NCBI GenBank assembly: GCA_001630475.1
Contig: KV419397.1
Coordinates: 875,758 to 939,757, forward strand
Direction of reading: 5' to 3'
Length of the DNA: 64,000 bases
Origin: Sistotremastrum niveocremeum HHB9708
Taxonomy: Eukaryota; Basidiomycota; Agaricomycetes; Sistotremastrales; Sistotremastraceae
The position numbers and the translations under genes are program-made. Shown here one piece after another: positions 6,466 to 48,600 of this stretch. The notes below the pieces were generated by a model. That model saw only the letters and a program-made list of their open reading frames with translations. It made no database searches and had not been told where the DNA came from. Every line of letters starts with the position of its first letter. Positions within the stretch are counted from its first letter, which is position 1.

Positions 6466-7377
6466 CTACACTTCTATTTTTGCGAATAAAGACTTGACTT
6501 GAGACTCGGACATCGCTCCTCCTTCTGGATCTGCAGCCTCGATACAACGAGCGATCGCGATTGTCTGTTTCGGCTCGCTCGTTGATATCCACACTCGCCC
6601 ATTGACTCCGACGACTACTTCCAGTGGAAATCGAGCCCCTATGAGCTTCAGGAGGTAATATTCGGGATCCAGAAGCCTGCCAAATTTTTCATGAGTCGTA
6701 GCTTTGCTGCAGAACAGGAGGTACGTACCATCGACATAGGATGAGACTGCATTTCACCATGAAGCCTCCTTTCAATTCTCCAAAATCACCAGCTTTATGC
6801 GTTTGACTATCAAAGCACTCGAGCTCAGGTTCCATATCTTTATGTGCCAGCGACACTCGAGCGAACACGAGCGATCCGACCTGAATAGCATGGTCAACGC
6901 TATTGAGAAAGGAATGCATGGTGACGGACGAACCTTCAGATTTGGTCTATTTCGTTTCGTCGCACCCTCAAAAGCGAGCGCGTCCAACGTGGCTTGATGA
7001 GCGGCTCCAATATCCACTCTCCAGCCCTCTTGTCCAATCCGGCCTGTTACGACTCCTACGACAGATTCTTGCGCTGCAGGCACATACTACTTTATCACCG
7101 TCAGTCAACACAAAATACTATGAGAGATAGACTGTGAGATACGTACCCGCTTCGCATTGCTTTCAATCCACCATTTAGTCATCTGCGGATTATGATGCAG
7201 TGATCCAGCTTTCGTCGAAAGGAGCGCATTTGCACTTGACGACTCGGACGAAGAGCCAGCTTGTGCCGAGGAAGAAGAAGCAGATGACGAGAGCTGAATC
7301 AACCCTGGACCAAGTTTGAGCTTTGCATGTTGAACAGGAACGAGATCGCCAGGCAAGACAGCTGAGGGCAATGACAT
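6466..7377 (-). CDS. RRP40: RNA exosome cap subunit RRP40
   Basis: Four exons on the minus strand: 7147-7377, 6934-7086, 6729-6880 and 6466-6676, giving 248 residues, close to yeast Rrp40. The start MSLPSAVLPGDLVPVQHAKL gives the N-terminal domain, followed by a Ser-rich insert. The S1-like part contains VVGVVTGRIGQEGWRVDIGA and VGSLVFARVSLAHKDMEPEL. The KH-like C-terminal part has LLDPEYYLLKLIGARFPLEV and VGVNGRVWIS, which includes the GxNG signature of the family. RRP40 is one of three S1/KH cap proteins of the nine-subunit exosome core that feeds RNA to Rrp44 and Rrp6. Splice phases close exactly. The gene is divergent from SUS1 with 58 bp between start codons. Confidence 0.95.
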
Positions 7378-7435
7378 TTTGACCGAAAGAAGCGTGACAG
7401 TCACACCGTGACGAACTCTTCGCAGCTCGTCTGCC
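7378..7435. promoter_or_regulatory. 58-bp shared promoter region of RRP40 and SUS1
   Basis: The start codons of the two divergent genes are separated by only 58 bp. Both 5' leaders and the core promoter elements must lie here or within the neighbouring coding sequence. No TATA box is visible. Confidence 0.6.
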
Positions 7436-7773
7436 ATGTCGGAGGGTGATGCCACGTTCATCGAGATCCACAAGCGGTTCACTGAGAAAGGCGAATGGGA
7501 CAAGATCATCACGAGCCTTTTGGAACGCTTGAATGAGACGGGATGGGTGGACTCGTTGAGGGATAAAAGCAAAGAGTCGGCGAGGTCGATGGAAACATTG
7601 CGATTTGAGAAGCTGATGGAGACTTTGAATCCACACGCTCAAGGTTTTATTTTCCTGCTTGATGCAACGTTGGCGTTGGCTGATTTTATTTTGTTTTAGG
7701 ATCTGTTCCGGAGGGCGTCAGGGCCGAGTTCGTCGAACAGATACGCAAGTTTCTCGAGAGTCAGATCGAGTGA
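7436..7773 (+). CDS. SUS1: SUS1/ENY2, SAGA and TREX-2 subunit
   Basis: Two exons, 7436-7643 and 7700-7773, giving 93 residues (yeast Sus1 has 96). The EnY2 pattern is clear: EIHKRFTEKGEWDKIITSLL, then LNETGWVDSLRDKSKESAR, then across the intron LMETLNPHAQGSVPEGVRAE and a final FVEQIRKFLESQIE. SUS1 belongs to the SAGA deubiquitinase module and to TREX-2, linking transcription to mRNA export at nuclear pores. The intron is 56 nt with a GT donor and a T-rich TTTTAG acceptor. The paired orientation with RRP40 joins two genes of RNA metabolism on one short promoter. Confidence 0.95.
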
Positions 7774-9025
7774 TTCGGTTATCTGTCAACGTCCAGTACG
7801 GCATGTACGTGTGGCGGGTGTACTGCAGCACTAGCAATGTTTATGATGTGAGAACTTCAATTGTCAGAAATTGCTCAGAGAAGCAAGAAGATTCAGACTT
7901 TAGCCTCATCCTCTTGCCTCCTCATGATGCACTCGCCACTCCTACATCAGGATATCCTCCGCCCTTCTGCTCCACCCGGGGATCTGTCGTGTCCTCAGAC
8001 AGCTATGGACCAGAATACGGTCCATTCGCCATGGTGAAGCCCCACTGTCATGTGCGATTATTATTCGCGATTTACCCAGGCATGTCTCTCTACCATCTCG
8101 GCTCTCGCAATGCCGCACGATTGAGCATCCGCGCTCTCCTTTGCTGTACCCCCTTAAACAACGTCGATGTCATGTCCTTGAGCATTCTCGTATGGTCGTC
8201 CTTCAGTACCATCTTTCACTGGCTCTCCAATGTTTTCTGAGTCGGTCAACGTTGCATCTTCCTTTGGCAGACTCTTGCGAGTGTACATCGTGCGAACCAC
8301 GATCCATGGGTTCCGGAAAGCAAGCCGATAGGCAATCCGCCCCACCGTCTTCGCGAGCCCAACCGTGATAACCTCCTTGAATATCCTTGCTCATCACACA
8401 AACATGAGGATTAAGTTCTCGATACAGGGCTGCGATCCGGCCAAGTCAGTGTTGACTGGCGCTCTGTTCCACAGACCCATGTCGCTGTATGGCAGTGTGT
8501 TCATTGTGTGCCACCTGAGACCCAGGAGGGACAACTCCATGTCCACTCCATGGCATGGCCTCTGCACCGAATTATGCTACCTTGCGGTTGTAGACTATGG
8601 TCTCTAGGATCGCTAGGATCTACTACCTCTTTCAGGATTATTGAGGGAACATGATCCCTTCTTGAAGCGCTCGTTGATTGTCTTGTCACGCGCTCCTGTG
8701 GCTTTTGCTTTATGGATACATGGAATATGATCGCACAAGGGCTGTTAACGGTTGACGACGTCTACTGGCAGTCGTTGACCCGGGCCGTACTGCTGCACTA
8801 CTGCATGAGCTGACTAAGCCTGCCATTGCACTTGCTGTGGGCTGCTCTGGGTGACTCATAAGTTTAGCAAACCTAATGTGAGAGATTGTCCTACAGCACT
8901 TTCTTTGCTGTTTTTCGCAAGTGTAGGAGGCTGCGAGCAGCTCAACCCTTAGGGAACGCGAGTGTCACGCACTTAGTCACGCGTTCTTACCTATCTTGGA
9001 AGTCACGCCGAGTCGGCCGGAGCCG
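7774..9025. other. Intergenic 1.25 kb with one possible exon
   Basis: On the minus strand 8154 to about 8370 reads as a possible C-terminal exon: VITVGLAKTVGRIAYRLAFR followed by an acidic tail ending in DIDVV before a stop. I could not find its upstream exons and do not recognise it. Nothing else is convincing. Confidence 0.25.
8976..8984. promoter_or_regulatory. GTCACGCGT motif upstream of reductase 1
   Basis: GTCACGCGT lies 42 bp upstream of the proposed start of the first aldo-keto reductase. The same nine bases occur inside a perfect palindrome upstream of the second copy (10874-10885), so this may be a shared control site. That is inference from two occurrences only. Confidence 0.3.
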
Positions 9026-36936: not shown

Positions 36937-38032
36937 TCATGATATCGCATCATATGCCATCAATCCATGCACGGCCCACTCATACACACCCAAGAATACA
37001 GCACCTCCTGCACTGATCCATAACGTCCGTGGGACAATTCCAGCAAACAACGCCCGCATTCCCTCCTCGAGGTATATCGACTTGAACCTCCGTAATAACG
37101 GAATTTTGCCAGTCGACGAATCCTGTCCGGACGTCAATGAATGGTGTGGAGAAGAGAAGAGATCAACTCACCCGCATGTCGAGCATCACACGCGTTTTCA
37201 ATACGTCGAGAGGAGTTGTTAGAGCAGCGGCTGTTCCACCTGCGATGCTGCCGCAGATAGCAGCCTCGTGAGCATAGAGCGGTTTTCGGTGAAGTTGAAG
37301 GGAGAGTTGATGTTTGAGGATCTCATAGAGAGGAAACTGAATGGAAGTGAAAGGGATCTTTACGAAAGGGTAAGTGACCAGAAGAAGAGGGGCGAAAGTT
37401 GTGGCAGTACCTCTCGGAATATCGTGGAACTGAATCCGCGATAGAAACCTTCGAAACCGCTGCTCGTCCATACTGACTTCGCGGCGAACAGACTGCCTGC
37501 TAGAGGGCCGTAGGCTGAGGTTTGGGTTCGGGTTTTGATCACTTCGGTGGGGACACGAATCAAGCATGCAGCCTGTCAACGCGTCAAGGTCTGGTAGTTT
37601 TTAGCAATCAATAAATGGACACACCACTTCTGCCGTCGATGCAGAGAGTACGTGCGTTAGGGGAGCATAACTTTCGGGCAGAGGAGAGATCCGTTTTAGC
37701 GTGTCATAGCAGGAGAAGAAAACAGCAGCTATATCCCCAAAATCAGCTCAGTGTCTAAGTCAAATCAAGACTTCATGCGTACCTCCAGGTGCACTCCCAA
37801 CAACTATACTGCCAACGCCCTTATATATTCCTCTAAAGCCACCTGCTTTCGCAAACCCTTGAGCCGACTGTAACCGAGTCTTGACAGTGTCGATAGGGAA
37901 GAATAATAAATCGACGGCTGTCCCAGCAGCACCTCCTGCCTCCAAAGTTAGAAATTAGGTTCATTTAATGAATATAATATAATGCTGAAGGAGACGCACC
38001 AAAAGAGACTGGCTGAAGGTGGGTGAAGACAT
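36937..38032 (-). CDS. PET8: Mitochondrial S-adenosylmethionine carrier PET8
   Basis: Six exons on the minus strand: 38000-38032, 37783-37939, 37625-37728, 37411-37572, 37172-37357 and 36937-37122, giving 275 residues (yeast Pet8 has 284). Three tandem carrier repeats are seen, each with the PxD/ExxK signature: [20 protein letters not shown] and [30 protein letters not shown], the [16 protein letters not shown] stretch and [18 protein letters not shown] match the SAM carrier subfamily. It exchanges SAM for S-adenosylhomocysteine across the inner membrane, supplying mitochondrial methylation and lipoate and biotin synthesis. The first coding exon encodes only 11 residues. Start codon is 54 bp from the ARP6 start on the other strand. 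Confidence 0.93.
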
Positions 38033-38086
38033 GCAAGCCGGTTTGCGCAAAGCGCCGACCTCAACGCGACCTTGAACGGATGGACG
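38033..38086. promoter_or_regulatory. 54-bp shared promoter region of PET8 and ARP6
   Basis: Divergent start codons lie 54 bp apart, so both leaders and core promoters are confined to this sequence or intrude into coding exons. Confidence 0.6.
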
Positions 38087-39937
38087 ATGAGCTCGCCTGT
38101 TCTCATCCTCGATAATGGAGGTCATACTATTAAATGTGGATGGTCGACTTCATCTGTCGACGATGTCCAGTAAGTGATTAGTCCTATACTACTAAAGCGG
38201 ATGATTTATGCCACTTTAGGGTGATACCCAATGCCGTCGTGCGGTCAAAATCTGAGAAAAGACAATATATTGGACATGAGTTTTCCTCGTGCACGGACTA
38301 CTCTTCATTGAATTGGAGATTGCCTGTTGAAAAGGTCTTTACACGGCGTGGTGGTGCACGAAATCAAGCTAAAGCTTCCAAGGATCCAGGGCTTTATCGC
38401 AGATTGGGACGCTCAGAAAGCCGTATGGGATGGCATCTTTGATAAAGTGCTCAACGTCAGTGCTGTATGAGATTGGTCTGGATGTCATCTGACTGGTACG
38501 AATAGGTTGAGCCGAGCCAGACGTCGCTCTTGATCACCGAACCTCCCTTCAACTTGCCCAACATCCAAGAACAATACGACCAATTGATATTTGAGGAATA
38601 TGAGTTCGAATCATACTATCGTGCTCCAGGTACGCTTCTTCTTCTTTTCATTCCCCTCTGCCAGATTCTGACTTCACCGCAGCTGCTTTCTTCGCCCCAT
38701 ACAAAGATCTCTTCGCAGAGCCGAATTCATCCTCCCCTCCTCCCGAGTGTACCCTCATCGTCGACTCCGGCTTCAGCTTCACGCACGTCATCCCAATTAT
38801 GGAAGGCTCGATATTCTGGCCCGGCGTCAGGCGCATTGACGTGGGCGGCAAGCTCCTAACGAATCACCTAGCAAACTTGGTCTCATATCGTCAATGGAAT
38901 ATGCTCGATCAAACGCATATCATCAATGACGTGAAGGAGAGCTGCTGCTATGTTGGCAATACAGCTGCGAGATTCGGTCTTGATCTTGAATTGTGTCGGT
39001 ATGTCGTATGAGTTCTGATCGTCCTCAGTGGGATTCTGAGTGCTTGAATCATCCTACAGGGCGAAGCCGAAGAGAAATCCGATCATTCAAGAATATCTCC
39101 TCCCCGACTACTCGCGCAATCGTCCGGGGAGACTGCATAATCCACAAGATATCATCACAGACAGCGATCAAATCTTATACATGGAAAATGAACGCTTCTC
39201 AGTTCCCGAAGTCCTCTTCCGACCAAGCGACATCGGTACGCATACCTTTCCTCTAAATCAAACGATCGACTTCCATGAAACTGAATGACTGCCAGGTATG
39301 GACCAAGCGGGCCTCGCCGAGACCATAGCAGCATCGATATCCACACTCCCCATCGATCTCCAAGGCATGTTCTGGGCGAACATAGGTCTCATAGGAGGCA
39401 ACACACGAATACCAAGCTTTGAAGAACGACTGTAAGCAATCTTCGCCCTTATCAGTGCCCATCTCACGACGTCGTGCAGGTTATCCGATTTACGTCCCTT
39501 AGCGCCTGTAGACGCGGAGATATCGCTATATAAAGATGAAAAGTGCGTACGCGTCGCTCTCACGAACGTACACTGGGCTCATCGATGCTGGATATAGTCC
39601 TATACTCACGGCTTACGGTTCCGCTCATGAATTCGTATCGCAAGATAACTTCGCTCAAGTTTGTGTTACGCTTGAGGAATACAATGAAGGCGGAAGCAAT
39701 GCGGTGCGCCGGAAGATACGGGACTGGAAGGACGTCGGCGTCGCTCCAACTCTACCATCTCGACGGCAAAACACAAAGGAGAAGGAAAAGACGGAGCAGG
39801 AAAGAAACACTCCAAGTAGGGGAACACCGGTTGGCAAAGGTACAGCACGCAGACAATCAGCAGTCGGTGTTGGAGCATCATCAAAGCAGAAGACAGCATC
39901 AAAACCGCAGGCTGTCCGAGCGCTGAGAGGGAAATAA
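38087..39937 (+). CDS. ARP6: Actin-related protein ARP6
   Basis: Nine exons: 38087-38169, 38220-38334, 38390-38455, 38506-38629, 38683-38998, 39060-39235, 39296-39431, 39480-39542 and 39598-39937, giving 472 residues. The actin fold is evident: phosphate loop [15 protein letters not shown], then [66 protein letters not shown] and [13 protein letters not shown]6 is a subunit of the SWR1 complex, which places histone H2A.Z. Beyond the usual end (RRKIRDWKD) it carries a basic, Thr/Ser/Lys-rich tail of roughly 75 residues that ends ALRGK; this tail is not part of the actin fold. The third intron acceptor was selected to read [15 protein letters not shown]. It shares its short promoter with PET8. 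Confidence 0.93.
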
Positions 39938-40177
39938 CAACCCCATGCCTGTCCTTTATTATGTGGTTGTGTGGCTGCTCATTGATCACCTGTTACCCAA
40001 GCAGTCTGGCTTAGTGTATGTCAATATCTCATAAATATTTTTAAGTAGGTTAAACCACATTGGAAGAATGAATAAGATGACCATGTCATCAGATATAGAT
40101 ATTTACAGATTAGGCAAGTCATGGATGGATTTAACCATGTACATTTGAGAGTACAAACTAGATAACAGCATGATGAT
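39938..40177. other. 3' flank of ARP6, start of CpG-poor block
   Basis: No gene seen. From about 39945 the sequence becomes almost free of CpG, continuing into the NLR-like gene. Confidence 0.5.
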
Positions 40178-40510
40178 TCATGCAGGGCAACTGGGCATCT
40201 GTAAGAAAATTAGATTCTTTGATCCATATCTCAGACAGATATGTGATCCATGAAATCCCATAATTTCAGCAGCTGAATAACAAGGAGAAATACACCACTT
40301 GCAGTCATGAAAAGGATCTATGAGCCATTCTTGTCCATTTTCATGCTGAATAGAATAAGCTGTTGCAATGCTGGGATGATGAGTAACAGAGTGCCCAACA
40401 GACATGAAGATATTGGGATTGGCTGCTTCAGATTGTCCAGTCAAGACTTGCTCCTGCTCACCATTGACAACATCCCAAATCCTGACAGTGTTGTCTCGGG
40501 ACCCTGAGGC

Positions 40511-41028
40511 AACATGTCTAAGGATGTTACGTGGGTTTTGGGTACCCAGGTACCTGCTGTGGGTACCCGAGATGCCAAGGTACCCGACACCATGGGTAAC
40601 CCAAGCCAATTACCCAATGGGTATGGGTCAAGCACTTGGAGACCTCGGGTACCCGGCACAGGTGATTAGGTCATAGGAACAGCCAAGGCTCCAGACAAAT
40701 CATCTGGTTAGAGACCCAGATGAAGAGTCCAATGAAGACAGAGTGCAAGGCAGTGATAATAAAGAAGACTCTGAGCACTCTGCAACATTTTTATGGTTCT
40801 TTTATATTAGTCCTATTGCAGGTACCTTTAGAATACCCAGGTACCTTTGCAGGTACCTGTGAAATACCTGGGTACCAATCACCTGAGGGTTACCCAATAC
40901 CTGCCTGGTATACCTGTGGGTATCAGGTACCTGAAGTGGAATACCCAATGGGTCAGGGTCAAGGTTTTGAGAATATTTTGGGTACCCATTACCCGCTGGT
41001 ATACCCACATAACATCCTTAAACATGTC
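40511..41028. mobile_element. hAT-like MITE, 502 bp, with 8-bp target duplication
   Basis: The element runs 40519-41020. Its ends are inverted repeats of 18 bp with one mismatch: TAAGGATGTTACGTGGGT at the left and ACCCACATAACATCCTTA at the right. Perfect 8-bp direct repeats AACATGTC flank it (40511-40518 and 41021-41028). Sister WD40 repeats in the same gene show the uninterrupted sequence at this place, confirming the insertion. The interior has no open frame of note but many GGTACC or GGTAYACC units, like the subterminal binding motifs of hAT elements. The 8-bp duplication fits hAT. It is a non-autonomous element dependent on a transposase from elsewhere. Confidence 0.88.
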
Positions 41029-42260
41029 TACCATCAGGTGAATATGCCACAGATTCCACCCCATATGAATGGCCCTCTAACAGTTGCTCCTGTTGGCCAG
41101 TGGCAACATCCCAAATTCTGACAGTCTTGTCTTGGGAGCCTGAGACAATGTGTCTACCATCAGGGGAATATGCCACAGATTCCACTGCATATGAGTGGCC
41201 CTGCAATAGCTGTTCCTGCTGGCCAGTAGCTGCATCCCAAACCCTGACAGTATTATCCCAAGATCCTGAGGCAATGTGTCTGCCATCAGGGGAATATGCC
41301 ACAGATTCCACCCAATGTGAGTGCCCCTCTAACAGATGCTCCAACAGACCAGCCTGATTACATGTATCCCATATCCTGATAGTCTTATCTTGAGACCCTG
41401 AGGCAACATGTTTACCATCAGGGGAGTATGCCACAGATTCCACCCAGTGTGAGGGGCCCTCTAATATCTGCTCCTGCTGGCCAGTGGCAGCATCCCAGAT
41501 CCGGACAGTATTGTCTCTGGATCCTGAGGCAATGTGTCTACCATCAGGAGAATACACCACAGATTTCACTGCATATGAGTGGCCCTCTAACAGCTGTTCC
41601 TGCTGACCAGTGGCAGCATCCCAAACCCTAACAGTATTGTCCCAAGATCCTGAGACAATGTGCCTGCCATAAGGAGAATATGCTACAGATTCCACCCAAT
41701 GTGAGTGGCCCACTAATAGCCGCTTCTGCTGACCAGTAGTAGCATCCCAGATTCTGACAGTGTTGTCTCGGGACCCTGAGACAATGTATCTACCATCAGG
41801 ACAATATGCCACAGATTCCACTGCATATGAGTGGCCCTGCAATAGCTGTTCCTGCTGGCCAGTAGCTGCATCCCAAATCCTGACAGTCTTGTCTCTGGAT
41901 CCTGAGACAAAGTGTCTGCCGTCAGGAGAATAGGTCACACATTCCACCCAATGTGAGTGGCCCTCTACTAGCTGCTCTTGCTGACCAGTGGCAATATCCC
42001 AGATCCTGACTGTGTTGTCCTGGGACCCTGACGCAACATGTCCTCCATCAGGGGAGTATGCCACACATTCCACTGAGTGTGAATGGCCCTCCAACAGCTG
42101 CTCCTGTTGGCCAGTGGCAACATCCCAGATCCTGACAGTCATGTCCTGGGACCCTGAGGCAACATGTCCACCATCAGGAGAATATGCTATACAGCATACT
42201 CTATCAGAGTGCCCCACAAAGGTGTGCCAAATGGCATCCCAGGTGAAACGGAGCCCTTTG
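41029..42260 (-). repeat. WD40 array, ten 126-bp repeats
   Basis: Ten 42-residue units of the type GHSxxVESVAYSPDGRHIxSG followed by SxDxTVRIWDxATGQQEQLLE. The nucleotide identity between units is high and blocks such as CCACAGATTCCACCCA recur every 126 bp. The tenth unit is split by the transposon. High identity suggests ongoing unequal exchange between units, as known for WD40 repeats of fungal HNWD incompatibility genes. Confidence 0.9.
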
Positions 42261-45200
42261 ATCACCTGTGGCCAATGGGACTGTGGTGATTGTTTGCAGA
42301 TGTAATGTTGTCTCATTAGAGAACTCTTTGGTAGCCATAGCAGTCCAGATTTGTACAGCTCTGATGGATTTTTGTTTATGATGTCAAAGTTTTCCAGAAG
42401 AAATCTTTGAGCATCTACAACCAAAGATAGAAGGGTAGGATATCTTTGCTAGATCATAAGAGTCAAATTCTACCTATAATATTCTAGTGGTGCACATACC
42501 AAAATGGGTTTCTGGCTGGAAGCCAGTGCCTCAACTGCAACATGTAGTTGACCAGTATACTGAAGGTACTCCAACCAATGCAATACTTGGGTTTGCAGGA
42601 AATAGGAAAGCAGACCCTGAACTTTGTCATCTACATCACTGCAGAGTGAAAGATGGAATGCCCAGAAAGAACAGGAATATGTGAGGGCTTGTGACAGGAG
42701 ACTAACTGAAGTAGGATGGTGCATAGACTCATATTTGGTGGTAGTGAATGTGGTATTGATTAATGTGAGGCACTGTTGTGTCAAGATATGATGAGACTGG
42801 CCAGGTTCAAGGTAGTATTGCTTTGAGCGTGATTTGTGGGTCAAGAAATCTGGGAAGGATGCATGGAATGGTGAAATCTGTGGATTGTCTTCTGAGGTGA
42901 CAAAAAGCACAGATTTGAGTGGTTCCATCAGTCTCTTGACAGCATTCCCATTGGCATTCATATCACCCTTAAGGAGACATGCAATGCATTGAGAAGTCAG
43001 TGGTTCTGAGGCAGCAATGATTATGCGGATGATGCACTCCATAGATTCATGCTGAGATGGCCGCAGGCAAGTAAACAACTGACCCATAACTTGAGAATAG
43101 AGTGAGTCAAGTGCACTTGTTTCCCAATCTGACCGCAGCAAAAGTTGGAGACGCCCTTCAGGATCATTGATTAGGGGATCACTGATGAACTTGAAAGCAG
43201 TGGAAGCAAATATAAACAAGTTATCTGCTTGCTCTGCAAGAGCTTTGACATCACTGTCTGATATTCCCATATCCCTGAGGCTCCTGAGGCTGTTAAACTT
43301 GTCATTGAGGTATTTAGTGATGTCGGCCTTCACTAAATCACCTTCAATGTTGTGGAGTATGAATGAATGATACAGATGTGCATCCTGGTACTTTTGATGC
43401 TCTGTTTCAGGTCGACTGGTGACAAAGAATTTCACAGGAAGAGATGGTGCACGTTGGAAGAGGGTCCGGAGAAGCCGATGGACCTGCTCTGCATCTGAAC
43501 ATTCATCAAGCGCATCAATGATGATGATGGGGAAGAAGCCTGAGTCCCGCATGCTGATGTTCAGTGGATCAACTAGAAGAGCCTGGCATTGCTTCTCGAG
43601 CATGGCCGTATTTGCAAGACTGTCGTCACGCGTCAAAGCATTGATTATGGAAGATGCAAAACGGGCAGGAAGATGCCGATTTTCAGCCAATGTATGAACG
43701 ATGGTAGGGATTATCCGATGCACGTGTCTTGTTTCTTCGACCGCCCGAGAGCAGAAGAAACTTGCACCTAGAAAGTTCTGCTGACCGAGAGTATCGCAGA
43801 ACGAATACGCGATTGTTGTCTTGCCGGTGCCGGCCATTCCGTTCAGCCAGTATATCCGTTCGGTCAAAGGGTTCTGGCTCCATAACATCAGTTCCTGAAG
43901 GAGAGCTTCTCGAGTGCCTTCAGTGCACCCATTGCGCGAGATACCGGTGTCAGCAAAGTCGAATCTTGCGGCATCAACGGGACGTAACTTCCGCAGCAAA
44001 TCGTGCTGTCAGCGGATCAGTATCAGCCAAGACATTGTAGAGATAGGCACATGAAATACCTTGCAAGCGTCTTTAGCTGATGTGGCAACCTTATTTAGGA
44101 CCGAGTGAATGGCCTCTGTTCTGGTATCGATGCTAAGGATGGCATCAAACTGAACGCAGCATTAGGGCCATGAAAGACAAGTCATGATCATGCGGTGGCG
44201 TACCTGGTAGTTCTCGCAGACACTGTTGATGGCACGGAAGCAGCCAGCAATGATGCCGGCATCCTTCGATCCTTCAGCGATGCGTCGGGTAGTTCCATGT
44301 CCATCCAAGGCCTTGATGACCTTTGTTTGTTCAGCAAAGGCGCTGGAAAGGGGAAGGTCAAAGACGAGAATGACGTTGCGCCATGAAGTTGCTCACTCTG
44401 CTAATGTGATGAGACAATTATGGATACGGGGAGTCAGAACGTGGGGTGATTGTACGTGATTTGCAACAATGTCGTTGACCCATTGGAGTTTTTCTCCGAG
44501 CTCCTTCAGACTATCTTAGTTGGTCTGAGATAACTTGGAAGAGACAAGATGTCATCACTCGGTCAACTGCAAAATCTTAAATGGACGTACTTCGAACGCA
44601 TCGATGCAGGCCACAAAGCCGCCCAGAATCGACTTCAAGATCGAGCTGAAGTCTGAGCTCTCTTTCAGTATCTTGACCAGGGTCTTAGCGCCCTCCCAGA
44701 CGATGCCTGACTTCGAAGTAGACTTCTGGTAGGGATCAGGGCTCAATACTTGAATTGAGGTGCCTTCGATGGTACCGGTCGCATCGTCTGGGGCAAGCTG
44801 CGACGCAGGAGGAGAAGCAATGGGAATCAGTGATGTAGACGACTTGATAGACATGGCGGCCGACGGTGTGACTACAGTCTGTATATGTGACTGTGAAGAC
44901 TGTACCACCCCAGGAGGATGTACTGAAGACGTGGAAGACGGATGGACAGACCCCTCCGTCGGTGAAGAGCGAGCAGAAACCTGCGAGGCCGGCGCGGTGT
45001 CAGAAATCACACCTGAGGCTGAGACTGGGGCTTGGGTTTGCAAGGATCCCACAGTGGCGCCAGGTGGCACTACAAGCACAGATGATAGATGTGCAGTTGA
45101 GCTATTAGTTGACGCAACAGGTGAAGCAGACGACGCGACGAACACCTGGAGTGGTGGAACGTTGGCCTCGGTCTGCCCTCCCGACGATTCCAGGGAGGCA

Positions 45201-45661
45201 GGAGGCTGTACTGCAGGCATGGAGGATGACTTCATGGACGGACTTGTGGGAGATGAAAGAGGTGGAATCCGCAAAGTGGACGAAGTGTCGGAAACTAGAG
45301 AGGATGCTGGGGCGACAGCTTGGGTCTGAGATTTCAACGTCGCCGCCACATCGGGAGTGGACGCTACAGCGGATGAAGGCTGCGCATACGTAGTCGTGGG
45401 CACTGGATTCGATACATACGATTGTGAGATAAGCGGGGAAGGTGAAGACATATGTGAAGAAAGAGTTGGGGGGCTGAACATGGTAGAGACGGGCATTGAA
45501 GATCCAATGGGAGGCGTCGGCGCGGAGCTCGTAGCTTGAGCTACGTGCGAAGATGTCGAAGCAATGGAAGGAATTGTTGTATGGGATTTAGTGAACGGTT
45601 TCAAGGCATCCTTGACTTGGCGAAGAAATCTGGGTTTCTTCGGGCTGGCTGATTTGGGCAT

Positions 45662-48600
45662 CGAACATTCGAGTAGACGGGCGAATGGATAGGCGAGTAA
45701 ATCGACAGGTGAAGAGACAGGTAGCTGGAAGGACCACCAGGTGTGACAGTACTTGTATACATGTACCAGTGCACCGTGGAATCGAACGCATCTACTGCGG
45801 CCCTGTCCGGACTCGGTACGCGTAGACGCCAGCGAATATTCTATATCCTCATCAGAAAGAGAACGAAAATGCGTTTGTCGTAGTTGGCAGCATAGGGTGG
45901 TTCGACGCGTTCTGTATTATAATACGCTGAACAAAGTAGGTTAGTACGACGTCTCGTGACTATTGCAGTGAGGCTGTTGAGGCTGTTTTACCATTGTACA
46001 AGGTGCGGTTGCAGTCAAGCCTCCAAACTGGTGTAACGGTTGGGTTCCGATATCCGAGCCGATCAAGTATAAATTATAGCCGATAGAAATACAATGTATT
46101 CAGTAAGATTTCTCTCGGTCAAGACATTACGATCTCGAGGCCAGGAACTCCTGTGTTTGGGGAATATCCAACGGATTCCAACGCTTGTGGGTTCTTTAAA
46201 TTTCGGAGACGCGGATTGACCGAGAGAACCTCTCACATCGCAGTCACAGTCGAGTCGAGGCGAAACGTTTTGATGAACTTAAGACATCCAGATGCAAGCT
46301 AAATGCTTAAGTTTCCAAGGTCCTGCCAGCGTCGGCCTACCCTGGTGAAGTTGATTTACTATCTCGAAAAGATTTTACTCTCACGAAGAGGAGCAATCGG
46401 GTATTTGCCATCGCATAACTAAGCTCAGACCATCACAATCGAAGACAGACGCAAGATAGCTTGGAGCAGCAGCGGTCTCCATCAACAGTTCTAAAGATAT
46501 TGCCTTTGTTTCACCCGCCAAGCCAGAGGCCATGCATTGACAGCCCGCTGGTGACCATGAAAGCGATTGCGAAGCAGGGAGGCGTAGATGAATAGAAACC
46601 ATGTCAGAGGTTGATCTCGATTGATCTTCAAATTTTAACGGTGAATTACGGATTGCAAGCGCAGAGCCCAGGGTCACTGAACGAGAGGGTCGAAACGGAA
46701 CGCATTTGTAGGTCTGCTCTCTGGCTGAGTCATTTACGGCGCTCGAGATCTCCGAACGATGGGATGATATCTGTGTTCGAGAACGTCGAGATTAAAGCGC
46801 GGATCAGACCAGCCTGACTACGTTTGGTCTGCTGTAGTCGCTAGCCCAGATTCTTGAGTGCAGGTCTCGAAGAAGAGACATCTTTCCAGACGTTAGGTCT
46901 AGCATGCTTCTTGGAGATGCAAAGTAGACCGCCGAGGTCTTTTCCGGGCATGTAGCTTGACAACTTGAAGCTTGAAGCAGTAATTTATGATACCGAGATG
47001 TCGCCCAGGACGAGTGATATGAAAGGATGAGAGGCTTCCGGCACCAGAGCCTAGATGTCACAGACCCAAGACTGAAGGCAGAGCGAATGCGCATGAAAAG
47101 CTCATTGATGCAGGACACAGAGCTCAGCAACATTTTTTGCGACGTTATGACAGATGATATCAGGCAATTTCGAGACAAAAAACGTCGCATAAATGCCTAC
47201 ACGAGCACATTGTTGAGATACAAGGATAAGCGGAGGTCATCATGCCACGGGACCAAAGTTGGCTTGTCATCACTAGAAAGTTGATCGTAAATCGTTGGCC
47301 GTCGTCGTCGTCGCTGGCAAGCCTCGGAATTCCGAATTCCGAAAACTTGCTCTCGTCCACCAGCACTCATCCAATCCAACATCGATTTTATATAGATAGT
47401 CTGGTCTTCGTCAGGACCAGCGAAGCATTCAGCTGAAATACCTCGGACCCGTGTGTCTTCGGATATTCAGCGTAACTTGTCGTGAGTGCATTTGTGTCGC
47501 AGCTTGTTTAGACGGCGACTGACCTTGGGTTAGATCATGATGGTCTGCGATTTCGGAATTAATTCGGGATGAATGGATCAGAGATGTCAGGCTATCAGCG
47601 AAATAGGAGTGTGGGTTTTGCGTACGTCGTACGAATCATACTCTTGAACTTACGGTTTGACATGAGATTCGCATAGGTTGAGGCCTCGATGGCTATCGAT
47701 TTAGTCTCGGTTGACAGCTTGGCTCCTCTTCTTCCTCTACACGCTGTCGACGAGCCGTATGGGTCGGACGTCCAACGTAGCTTATTCATGGCCCTCAACG
47801 CTCTCTAGAGTTCACAGAGTTCAGACCCTCGACGACCTGAGTAAGCTCTATGTCTTTTGGACTATTCTAGTACTGATCGTCTCTGATATCAACAGTGATG
47901 GGTCACTCGTGTCTGACGAACGATGAATCCCTGTCTTCTACGGACTTCCAATTCCGACGAGCCTGTACTGTAGCTCACAGCCCACCGACACCTTCAGCAT
48001 CTTCCGAAGCCAGGCTTCGGGGCCACAACCACGCTCCAAAGCATTCTTTCGATGGCTCGAGTCCCTCAGGTCCTTCTACAGACTCGCTGTCTGGAATACA
48101 GGCGGCCTCGAGACGCGATCCCCTGGATCTTAGACGAGGAGCATCGATAGACTTGTCGACTTCTTTGCCATAGAGGACAGTGACGGCTTAGGCATGGGTT
48201 CCTCACGTATGTACTCTTTGGGTTTCGTAGCTAACATCTGAATGCTAACTTCCTAGCAGGTCCACCTTGTGAACCCGCCCATCCTCTTCGATGCGCTCAG
48301 CCATCTCATCTACCGCGTAGACCCTCTGGCAATTTCCTTTCCATGCGATGATGCGATCCGCTTCTTCGTATACTATCCACGTCATCCCTGTTGCCTTCAA
48401 AGCCTGAAAGATGATGAGACTTCTCTGTGCCTGTGCGAGGCGTCATTGTCCCAATGACAATTCGCAGACTATGTCGAGGATAATGATGTATCCTTCACGA
48501 TGTTCAGCCTACCTGTAAAGCGGAAGGATCTGACGTGAAGTTGGATTACTCGCGGCTCTCGCTATCTCCGGGGACGAACCCTCATGCGCTGGGCGCCTTT

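Follow-up and report, generated by a model that had tools for sequence, protein, structure and literature searches.

The DNA examined here is a 64,000-nucleotide stretch, referred to below as the window, of the genome of the basidiomycete Sistotremastrum niveocremeum HHB9708. It contains an NLR-like gene, the 3' part of which lies in a block that is poor in CpG dinucleotides. Defined as a maximal-scoring segment, this block extends over positions 39922-43413 (no strand) and holds 19 CpGs, i.e., the ratio of observed CpGs to those expected from base composition (o/e) is 0.10; for the entire window the ratio is 0.995. The CpG-poor block is a real and strong feature, and it recurs in the genome.

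The NLR-like gene is encoded on the minus strand. Its exon 1 (44558-45663, counted from the first in-frame ATG, which is the presumed start) is CpG-normal, and its open frame gave no Pfam match. Further downstream in the gene are a NACHT open frame of 512 amino acid residues (aa; 42473-44008), in which the NACHT domain occupies residues 52-208 (about 43385-43855), a probable short intron with splice sites placed by eye (42449-42502; 0 CpG vs 1.4 expected), and a WD40 open frame of 476 aa (41018-42448; 6 CpG vs 87 expected). Both the NACHT and the WD40 frame are open. The latter contains a tandem array of 9.2 copies of a 126-bp unit (41025-42187), and the Pfam scores, 40.7 bits for NACHT (cut-off 26.7) and 398.6 bits for WD40 in nine stretches, identify a NACHT-then-WD40 architecture. 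A transposon-like insert, described below, separates the array from the final WD40 unit and C-terminal segment of the gene (40178-40510, minus strand); an open frame at 40178-40609 covers this segment, and the protein of a paralogue, L031, ends similarly. A non-coding gap between two stop codons (39938-40177; 0 CpG vs 8.0 expected) leads to the last open frame of the neighboring gene (39512-39937, plus strand), which is CpG-normal and oriented convergently to the NLR-like gene. The name ARP6 was given to this neighbor only in an earlier, sequence-only reading of the DNA and is taken here as an assumption; the Pfam Actin match is weak (E 0.0053, 15.8 bits, cut-off 27).

Between positions 39945 and 43400 there are 19 CpGs, compared to 182 expected (o/e 0.104), and the count made by eye in the sequence-only reading, 19 CpGs in 40021-43380 (o/e 0.107), was exact. 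Its description of CpG-normal flanks and of abundant TG and CA also agrees with the data: the o/e is 1.08 at 38000-39945 and 0.94 at 43400-46000, and in the seven 500-bp intervals of the block the ratios are 1.21-1.86 for TpG and 1.24-1.67 for CpA. Outside 39.5-44 kb the minimum 1-kb CpG o/e in the window is 0.76, and the longest stretches of the window that lack CpG, eight in number (579, 576, 508, 340, 219, 217, 198 and 172 bp), are all found inside the block. Six of the 19 block CpGs are located in the insert at 40519-41020. The view that the block is sharply bounded holds for the low edge, where the change is abrupt at the end of the neighboring gene (final CpG at 39921, stop codon at 39935-39937, next CpG only at 40497), but not for the NACHT-side edge, which is a graded ramp. 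Here, the o/e in 200-bp intervals starting at 43201, 43301, 43401, 43501 and 43601 is 0.12, 0.50, 0.57, 0.89 and 1.21, respectively, i.e., it climbs across about 0.4 kb within the NACHT exon, the 3' part of the frame being CpG-poor up to about 43413 and the 5' part CpG-normal.

The block is not specific to the window gene; it is family-wide. The genome contains 57 NACHT matches, and 32 loci covering 33 of these matches were read. Seven of the 32 loci carry a CpG-poor block, with segment scores of 32-133 (the lowest of which comes from pieces of an incompletely covered locus), and in the other 25 the best segment spans at most 185 bp with a score of at most 7.5; six of the latter loci (L001-L006) are 3.4-3.5-kb pieces, one of them incompletely covered, that may stop short of the repeats. 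The possibility raised in the sequence-only reading, that all NLR genes of this genome are low in CpG along their whole length, does not apply, because 25 of the 32 loci have no block and because the depletion is limited to a part of each affected gene: when the NACHT exon is cut at the CpG edge, the N-terminal part (N part) is CpG-normal in all seven, and only the C-terminal part (C part) is depleted. The seven affected loci constitute one NACHT clade, and every one of the seven members found carries the block. Used as a query, the N part of the window gene recovered these seven at 54-100% identity and all other matches at 36% or below (45 matches), and in unrooted trees of both exon parts the seven were grouped together with full support.

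When the seven genes were aligned on their array borders and pooled in 200-bp steps (in the window gene, this border was placed manually such that the insert falls inside the array), the o/e was 0.21, 0.00, 0.24, 0.36, 0.62 and 0.91 with increasing distance upstream of the array, and 0.24, 0.16, 0.61 and 1.12 downstream. The depletion is centered on the WD40 array and fades out across about 0.5 kb on the downstream side and about 0.9 kb on the upstream side. Two rows deviate: in L031 the o/e remains at 0.00-0.53 over 1.8 kb downstream, and the first downstream bin of L033 has a value of 2.22, which may reflect few letters. At 200-400 bp upstream of the array, the o/e is 0.00 in every one of the seven genes, below that of the array itself. 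Past the block of L031, the closest paralogue of the window gene, there is also a long stretch of intermediate CpG content (about 6700-9000 of that locus, o/e mostly 0.2-0.7), perhaps composed of old repeats.

The affected arrays differ from those of the other NACHT loci in the likeness of their units. Self-similarity, for which 120-bp array stretches were matched to another stretch, is 0.84-0.95 in all seven affected loci and 0.46-0.60 in the 19 of the 25 block-free loci for which it was computed; some of the array counts rest on a part of the array. A WD40 match was found in 15 of these 19 control loci, among 150 of 660 candidates scored, and these 15 WD40 regions, all with degenerate arrays, have CpG o/e values of 0.80-1.16. 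WD40 repeats of high internal conservation (HIC), defined as more than 85% identity over at least 100 aa, are known in fungal NLR genes (PMC4986451). The window gene falls within this definition (0.86 over 100 aa), while L035 (0.81), L021 (0.79), L031 (0.68) and L033 (0.60) fall below it by our crude, ungapped measure. Because some affected arrays miss the published cut-off, we use the term "high-identity arrays".

Because clade membership, repeat identity and CpG loss coincide within the seven genes, TPR arrays were also examined. Matches to TPR_10 yielded three long open frames (C64, C26 and C54), and the prediction set before the data were seen, i.e., that high-identity TPR arrays are CpG-poor and a degenerate one is normal, held. 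The C64 array has a self-similarity of 0.97 and an o/e of 0.20, and is near-normal in the first 300 bp outside the array; the corresponding values are 0.96 and 0.14 for C26, and 0.59 and 1.24 for C54. By the ungapped measure used above, the values for the two high-identity TPR arrays are 0.88 and 0.86 over 100 aa. Altogether, nine of ten high-identity arrays (seven WD40 and two TPR) are CpG-poor, as compared to none of the 16 degenerate arrays (15 WD40 and one TPR); Fisher's test gives p = 3.2e-6, with related genes treated as independent.

The base counts point to the kind of mutation involved. In the block, a CpG deficit of about 163 is accompanied by an excess of about 133 TpG and about 94 CpA; the summed TpG and CpA excess in the two flanks is about 18 and about 62. 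The TpA o/e is not raised, as the block and its left flank have the same value (0.73). The hallmarks of classical repeat-induced point mutation (RIP), i.e., a preference for CpA, raised TpA and stop codons, are not seen, as CpA is in excess and the frames are open; what is seen is CpG loss with a gain of TpG and CpA that is tied to repeated DNA, polyubiquitin excepted. The signature extends to the codons. In the eight repeat frames, of which six are WD40 and two are TPR, those of the form NCG number 16 of 952, as compared to 374 of 1480 in the C parts of the controls; in the seven NACHT exons the counts are 25 of 544 for C parts and 56 of 342 for N parts. Arginine is encoded by CGN at 41 of 158 positions in the repeat frames, 79 of 118 in the NACHT C parts, 71 of 84 in the N parts and 336 of 422 in the control C parts. 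In the NACHT C part and WD40 frame of the window gene, 10 of 13 CpGs (including the edge CpG at 43413) are in arginine codons. The ratio of nonsynonymous to synonymous substitution rates (dN/dS) is 0.22-0.31 in five comparisons of the CpG-poor NACHT C part, while the N part gives 0.09-0.19; judging from these ratios, it is selection that keeps the frame open, and constraint is somewhat weaker in the C part.

The insert in the WD40 exon, which the sequence-only reading did not mention, is 502 bp long (40519-41020), has terminal inverted repeats and is flanked by an 8-bp target duplication (40511-40518 and 41021-41028), so that the feature including the duplications spans 40511-41028 (no strand). 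Four further full copies are found elsewhere in the genome (L049-L052; 90-94% identical), and the 8-bp duplication, read by eye from the flanks, is present in five of the five full copies. With its terminal inverted repeats, 8-bp duplication and several copies, the insert is a hAT-like miniature inverted-repeat transposable element (MITE), the 8-bp length of the duplication pointing to hAT. The insert is itself CpG-poor (6 CpG vs 28.4 expected), as are the other full copies (o/e 0.23-0.38). Because the insert carries a stop that is introduced into the WD40 frame, the product of the window gene is probably truncated unless the insert is spliced out; inspection by eye gave no convincing splice path that would excise it.

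From the above data, the process that we consider probable is CpG methylation that is triggered by repeats and followed by deamination, with purifying selection acting on the genes. The internal array of near-identical 126-bp WD40 units would be treated by the cell as repeated DNA, and CpG methylation would be placed there, presumably by a cytosine methylase (domains of this type are encoded at two loci of the genome). From there, the mark would extend downstream to the gene end (about 0.5 kb) and upstream into the NACHT exon (about 0.9 kb), and the methylated cytosines would deaminate, presumably over many generations, such that CpG is converted to TpG or CpA. Purifying selection would keep the receptor readable, so that silent CpGs are lost and arginine codons change from CGN to AGA or AGG; the leftover CpGs would be found mostly in arginine codons for this reason. 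Unequal exchange may keep the units alike and hence the trigger in place. The suggestion of the sequence-only reading that methylation spreads from the repeats fits the data well, because the depletion is centered on the array, fades with distance and recurs at high-identity TPR arrays; the methylation itself is deduced.

A number of observations weigh against this process. Of the nine affected arrays, seven come from a single clade and are hence not independent, and the present identity is modest in L031 (0.84 over 120 bp, 0.68 over 100 aa) and in L033 (0.60 over 100 aa). Polyubiquitin (L047/L048, contig C2, about 301 kb) has a self-similarity of 0.89 and is CpG-normal (o/e 1.07-1.08), and repeat identity alone is therefore insufficient as a trigger; that high expression protects polyubiquitin is a guess. 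In addition, a DNMT1-like gene fragment (L038, contig C15, about 401 kb) is CpG-poor, with 14 CpGs in 3162 bp (o/e 0.10), and a DNA search of the genome revealed no second copy of this locus. Eight of 30 retroelement matches were read, of which three are CpG-poor (0.00, 0.07 and 0.34), in agreement with the proposed process, and five are near CpG-normal (0.94-1.23), which speaks against it. Because polyubiquitin is spared and L038 is CpG-poor, there is room for a chromatin-based trigger, with repeat identity merely accompanying.

This latter explanation, where methylation is set by the chromatin or expression state of silent or rarely expressed genes and the array merely tends to sit there, would account for both the spared polyubiquitin array, which is presumably highly expressed, and the depleted DNMT1-like locus. 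It is more difficult to reconcile with a depletion centered on the array in genes with normal 5' parts, and with the 15 WD40-bearing NLR loci that have degenerate arrays and normal CpG; we regard it as improbable. Somewhat better placed, but still unlikely, is an active, RIP-like deamination of CpG in repeats (e.g., before meiosis) without a lasting methylation intermediate. The sequence pattern alone cannot distinguish active from passive deamination, and a CpG-to-TpG hypermutation that is commoner near repeats is described for Rhizoctonia solani AG8 (PMC4014442). On the other hand, the unchanged TpA ratio shows no signature of CpA-to-TpA mutation, and the RID/Masc1 gene is reported to be absent from basidiomycetes (PMC4352252).

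The sequence-only reading had also considered a chimeric gene, the 3' part of which was acquired by recombination from a CpG-poor relative, which would agree with a CpG change that falls within a single exon. To be set against this are separate trees of the two exon parts (26 rows each; L001 and L004 were dropped, and L012, L023, L027 and L028 were left out as they have no open frame with the P-loop pattern used), which contain the same three groups: the window gene with L031, L033 with L034, and L021 with L007 and L035, where the branching order among the last three has only low support in the tree of the C part. Moreover, the synonymous divergence (dS) between the window gene and L031 is similar in the N and C parts (0.71 and 0.64), and each of the seven genes has a block of its own. 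A lower dS in the C part is found for two of five pairs, inside the L021/L007/L035 group (0.38 vs 0.77 and 0.88), where exchange among L021, L035 and L007, or a loss of variable sites, is possible from these distances; for the block itself, a chimeric origin is very unlikely. Similarity between paralogues as a trigger is disfavored by two pairs in which the CpG-normal N part is the more alike one (78 vs 71% aa identity for the window gene and L031, 82 vs 64% for L033 and L034); it may still apply to the L021/L007/L035 group, where L021/L035 (77% in N, 79% in C) and L035/L007 (74 vs 79%) show a slight opposite trend and a lower dS in the C part (0.38). The remaining explanations have a negligible probability. 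Methylation spreading from the MITE would fit the low CpG content of the insert and its four full copies, but a genome search with the insert gave no copy at the other affected loci, which still have blocks, and this source was rejected for the family. A selective pressure against CpG that acts on codons or RNA, for which no supporting point was found, can hardly be upheld when the non-coding gap downstream of the gene is depleted too and CpG is normal in the 5' part of the NACHT exon. No supporting point was found either for errors in sequencing or base-calling at methylated CpGs, which could scarcely give dN/dS values well below 1 and could not, by C-to-T miscalls, recode arginine to AGA or AGG.

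De novo methylation of repeated sequences was reportedly described by Freedman and Pukkila in 1993 for Coprinus cinereus, where methylation of the repeats itself is said to have been reported, while in the present case it is deduced from CpG loss. DNMT1-RFD has been described as the enzyme that maintains CpG methylation in Basidiomycota (PMC13297926), and CpG signatures in basidiomycete transposons have been linked to Masc2-type enzymes, a MIP-like process and deamination (PMC4352252). The decay of these transposons shares with the blocks the conversion of CpG to TpG and CpA and the aim at repeated DNA (PMC4352252); the targets differ in that here they are internal coding arrays made of short units, from which the spread into single-copy flanks could be measured. 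The HIC NLRs het-d and het-e of Podospora anserina are similar in their NACHT-WD40 architecture, near-identical tandem units and proposed repeat-directed mutation (PMC4986451, PMC1805685, PMC12222747). In that fungus, RIP was found in the NACHT domain and flanks of two pseudogenes and not in their WD repeats, which was ascribed to concerted evolution (PMC1805685), whereas in S. niveocremeum the repeats bear the strong signal, only CpG is affected and the genes are under purifying selection. The hypermutation of R. solani AG8 also converts CpG to TpG, includes coding regions and is commoner near repeats, but is spread widely over the genome between nuclei (PMC4014442); here, CpG loss is confined to repeat-centered blocks in an otherwise CpG-normal window. 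A limited literature search revealed no description of basidiomycete NLR genes with CpG-depleted repeats.

The blocks are best read as the outcome of a known kind of process on an unexpected target, i.e., the internal arrays of coding genes that are kept by selection. With repeat-triggered methylation as the starting point, a more general proposal, to which we assign slightly less than even chances, is that basidiomycetes sense high-identity tandem arrays in their own genes, even where the units are only 126 bp long, and that these arrays, together with a short stretch beyond them, become methylated in cis. The receptors would survive because mutation of CpG only is mild and, once arrays are CpG-exhausted, further decay is nearly costless, such that genome defense could coexist with a fast-recombining receptor repertoire. 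The data suggest that functional receptor genes can be subject to a repeat-directed process and not be destroyed by it, and also that the CpG profile alone could flag genes with homogenized repeats in a genome of this kind. The question of how a fungus keeps receptors built from repeats while defending itself against repeats becomes testable.

Some minor observations concern other loci. The retroelement locus L040, which lies about 2.4 kb from the end of contig C1, has 0 CpG in 3486 bp, yet it holds an open frame of 1303 aa at the match, and L041, near an end of contig C27, is depleted in a similar way (o/e 0.07). Similar frames adjoin two of the seven affected NLR genes, at about 619-1372 of L021 and about 2064-2606 of L032; the former is acetamidase/formamidase-like by Pfam, and the presence of such frames beside both genes hints at a segmental duplication.

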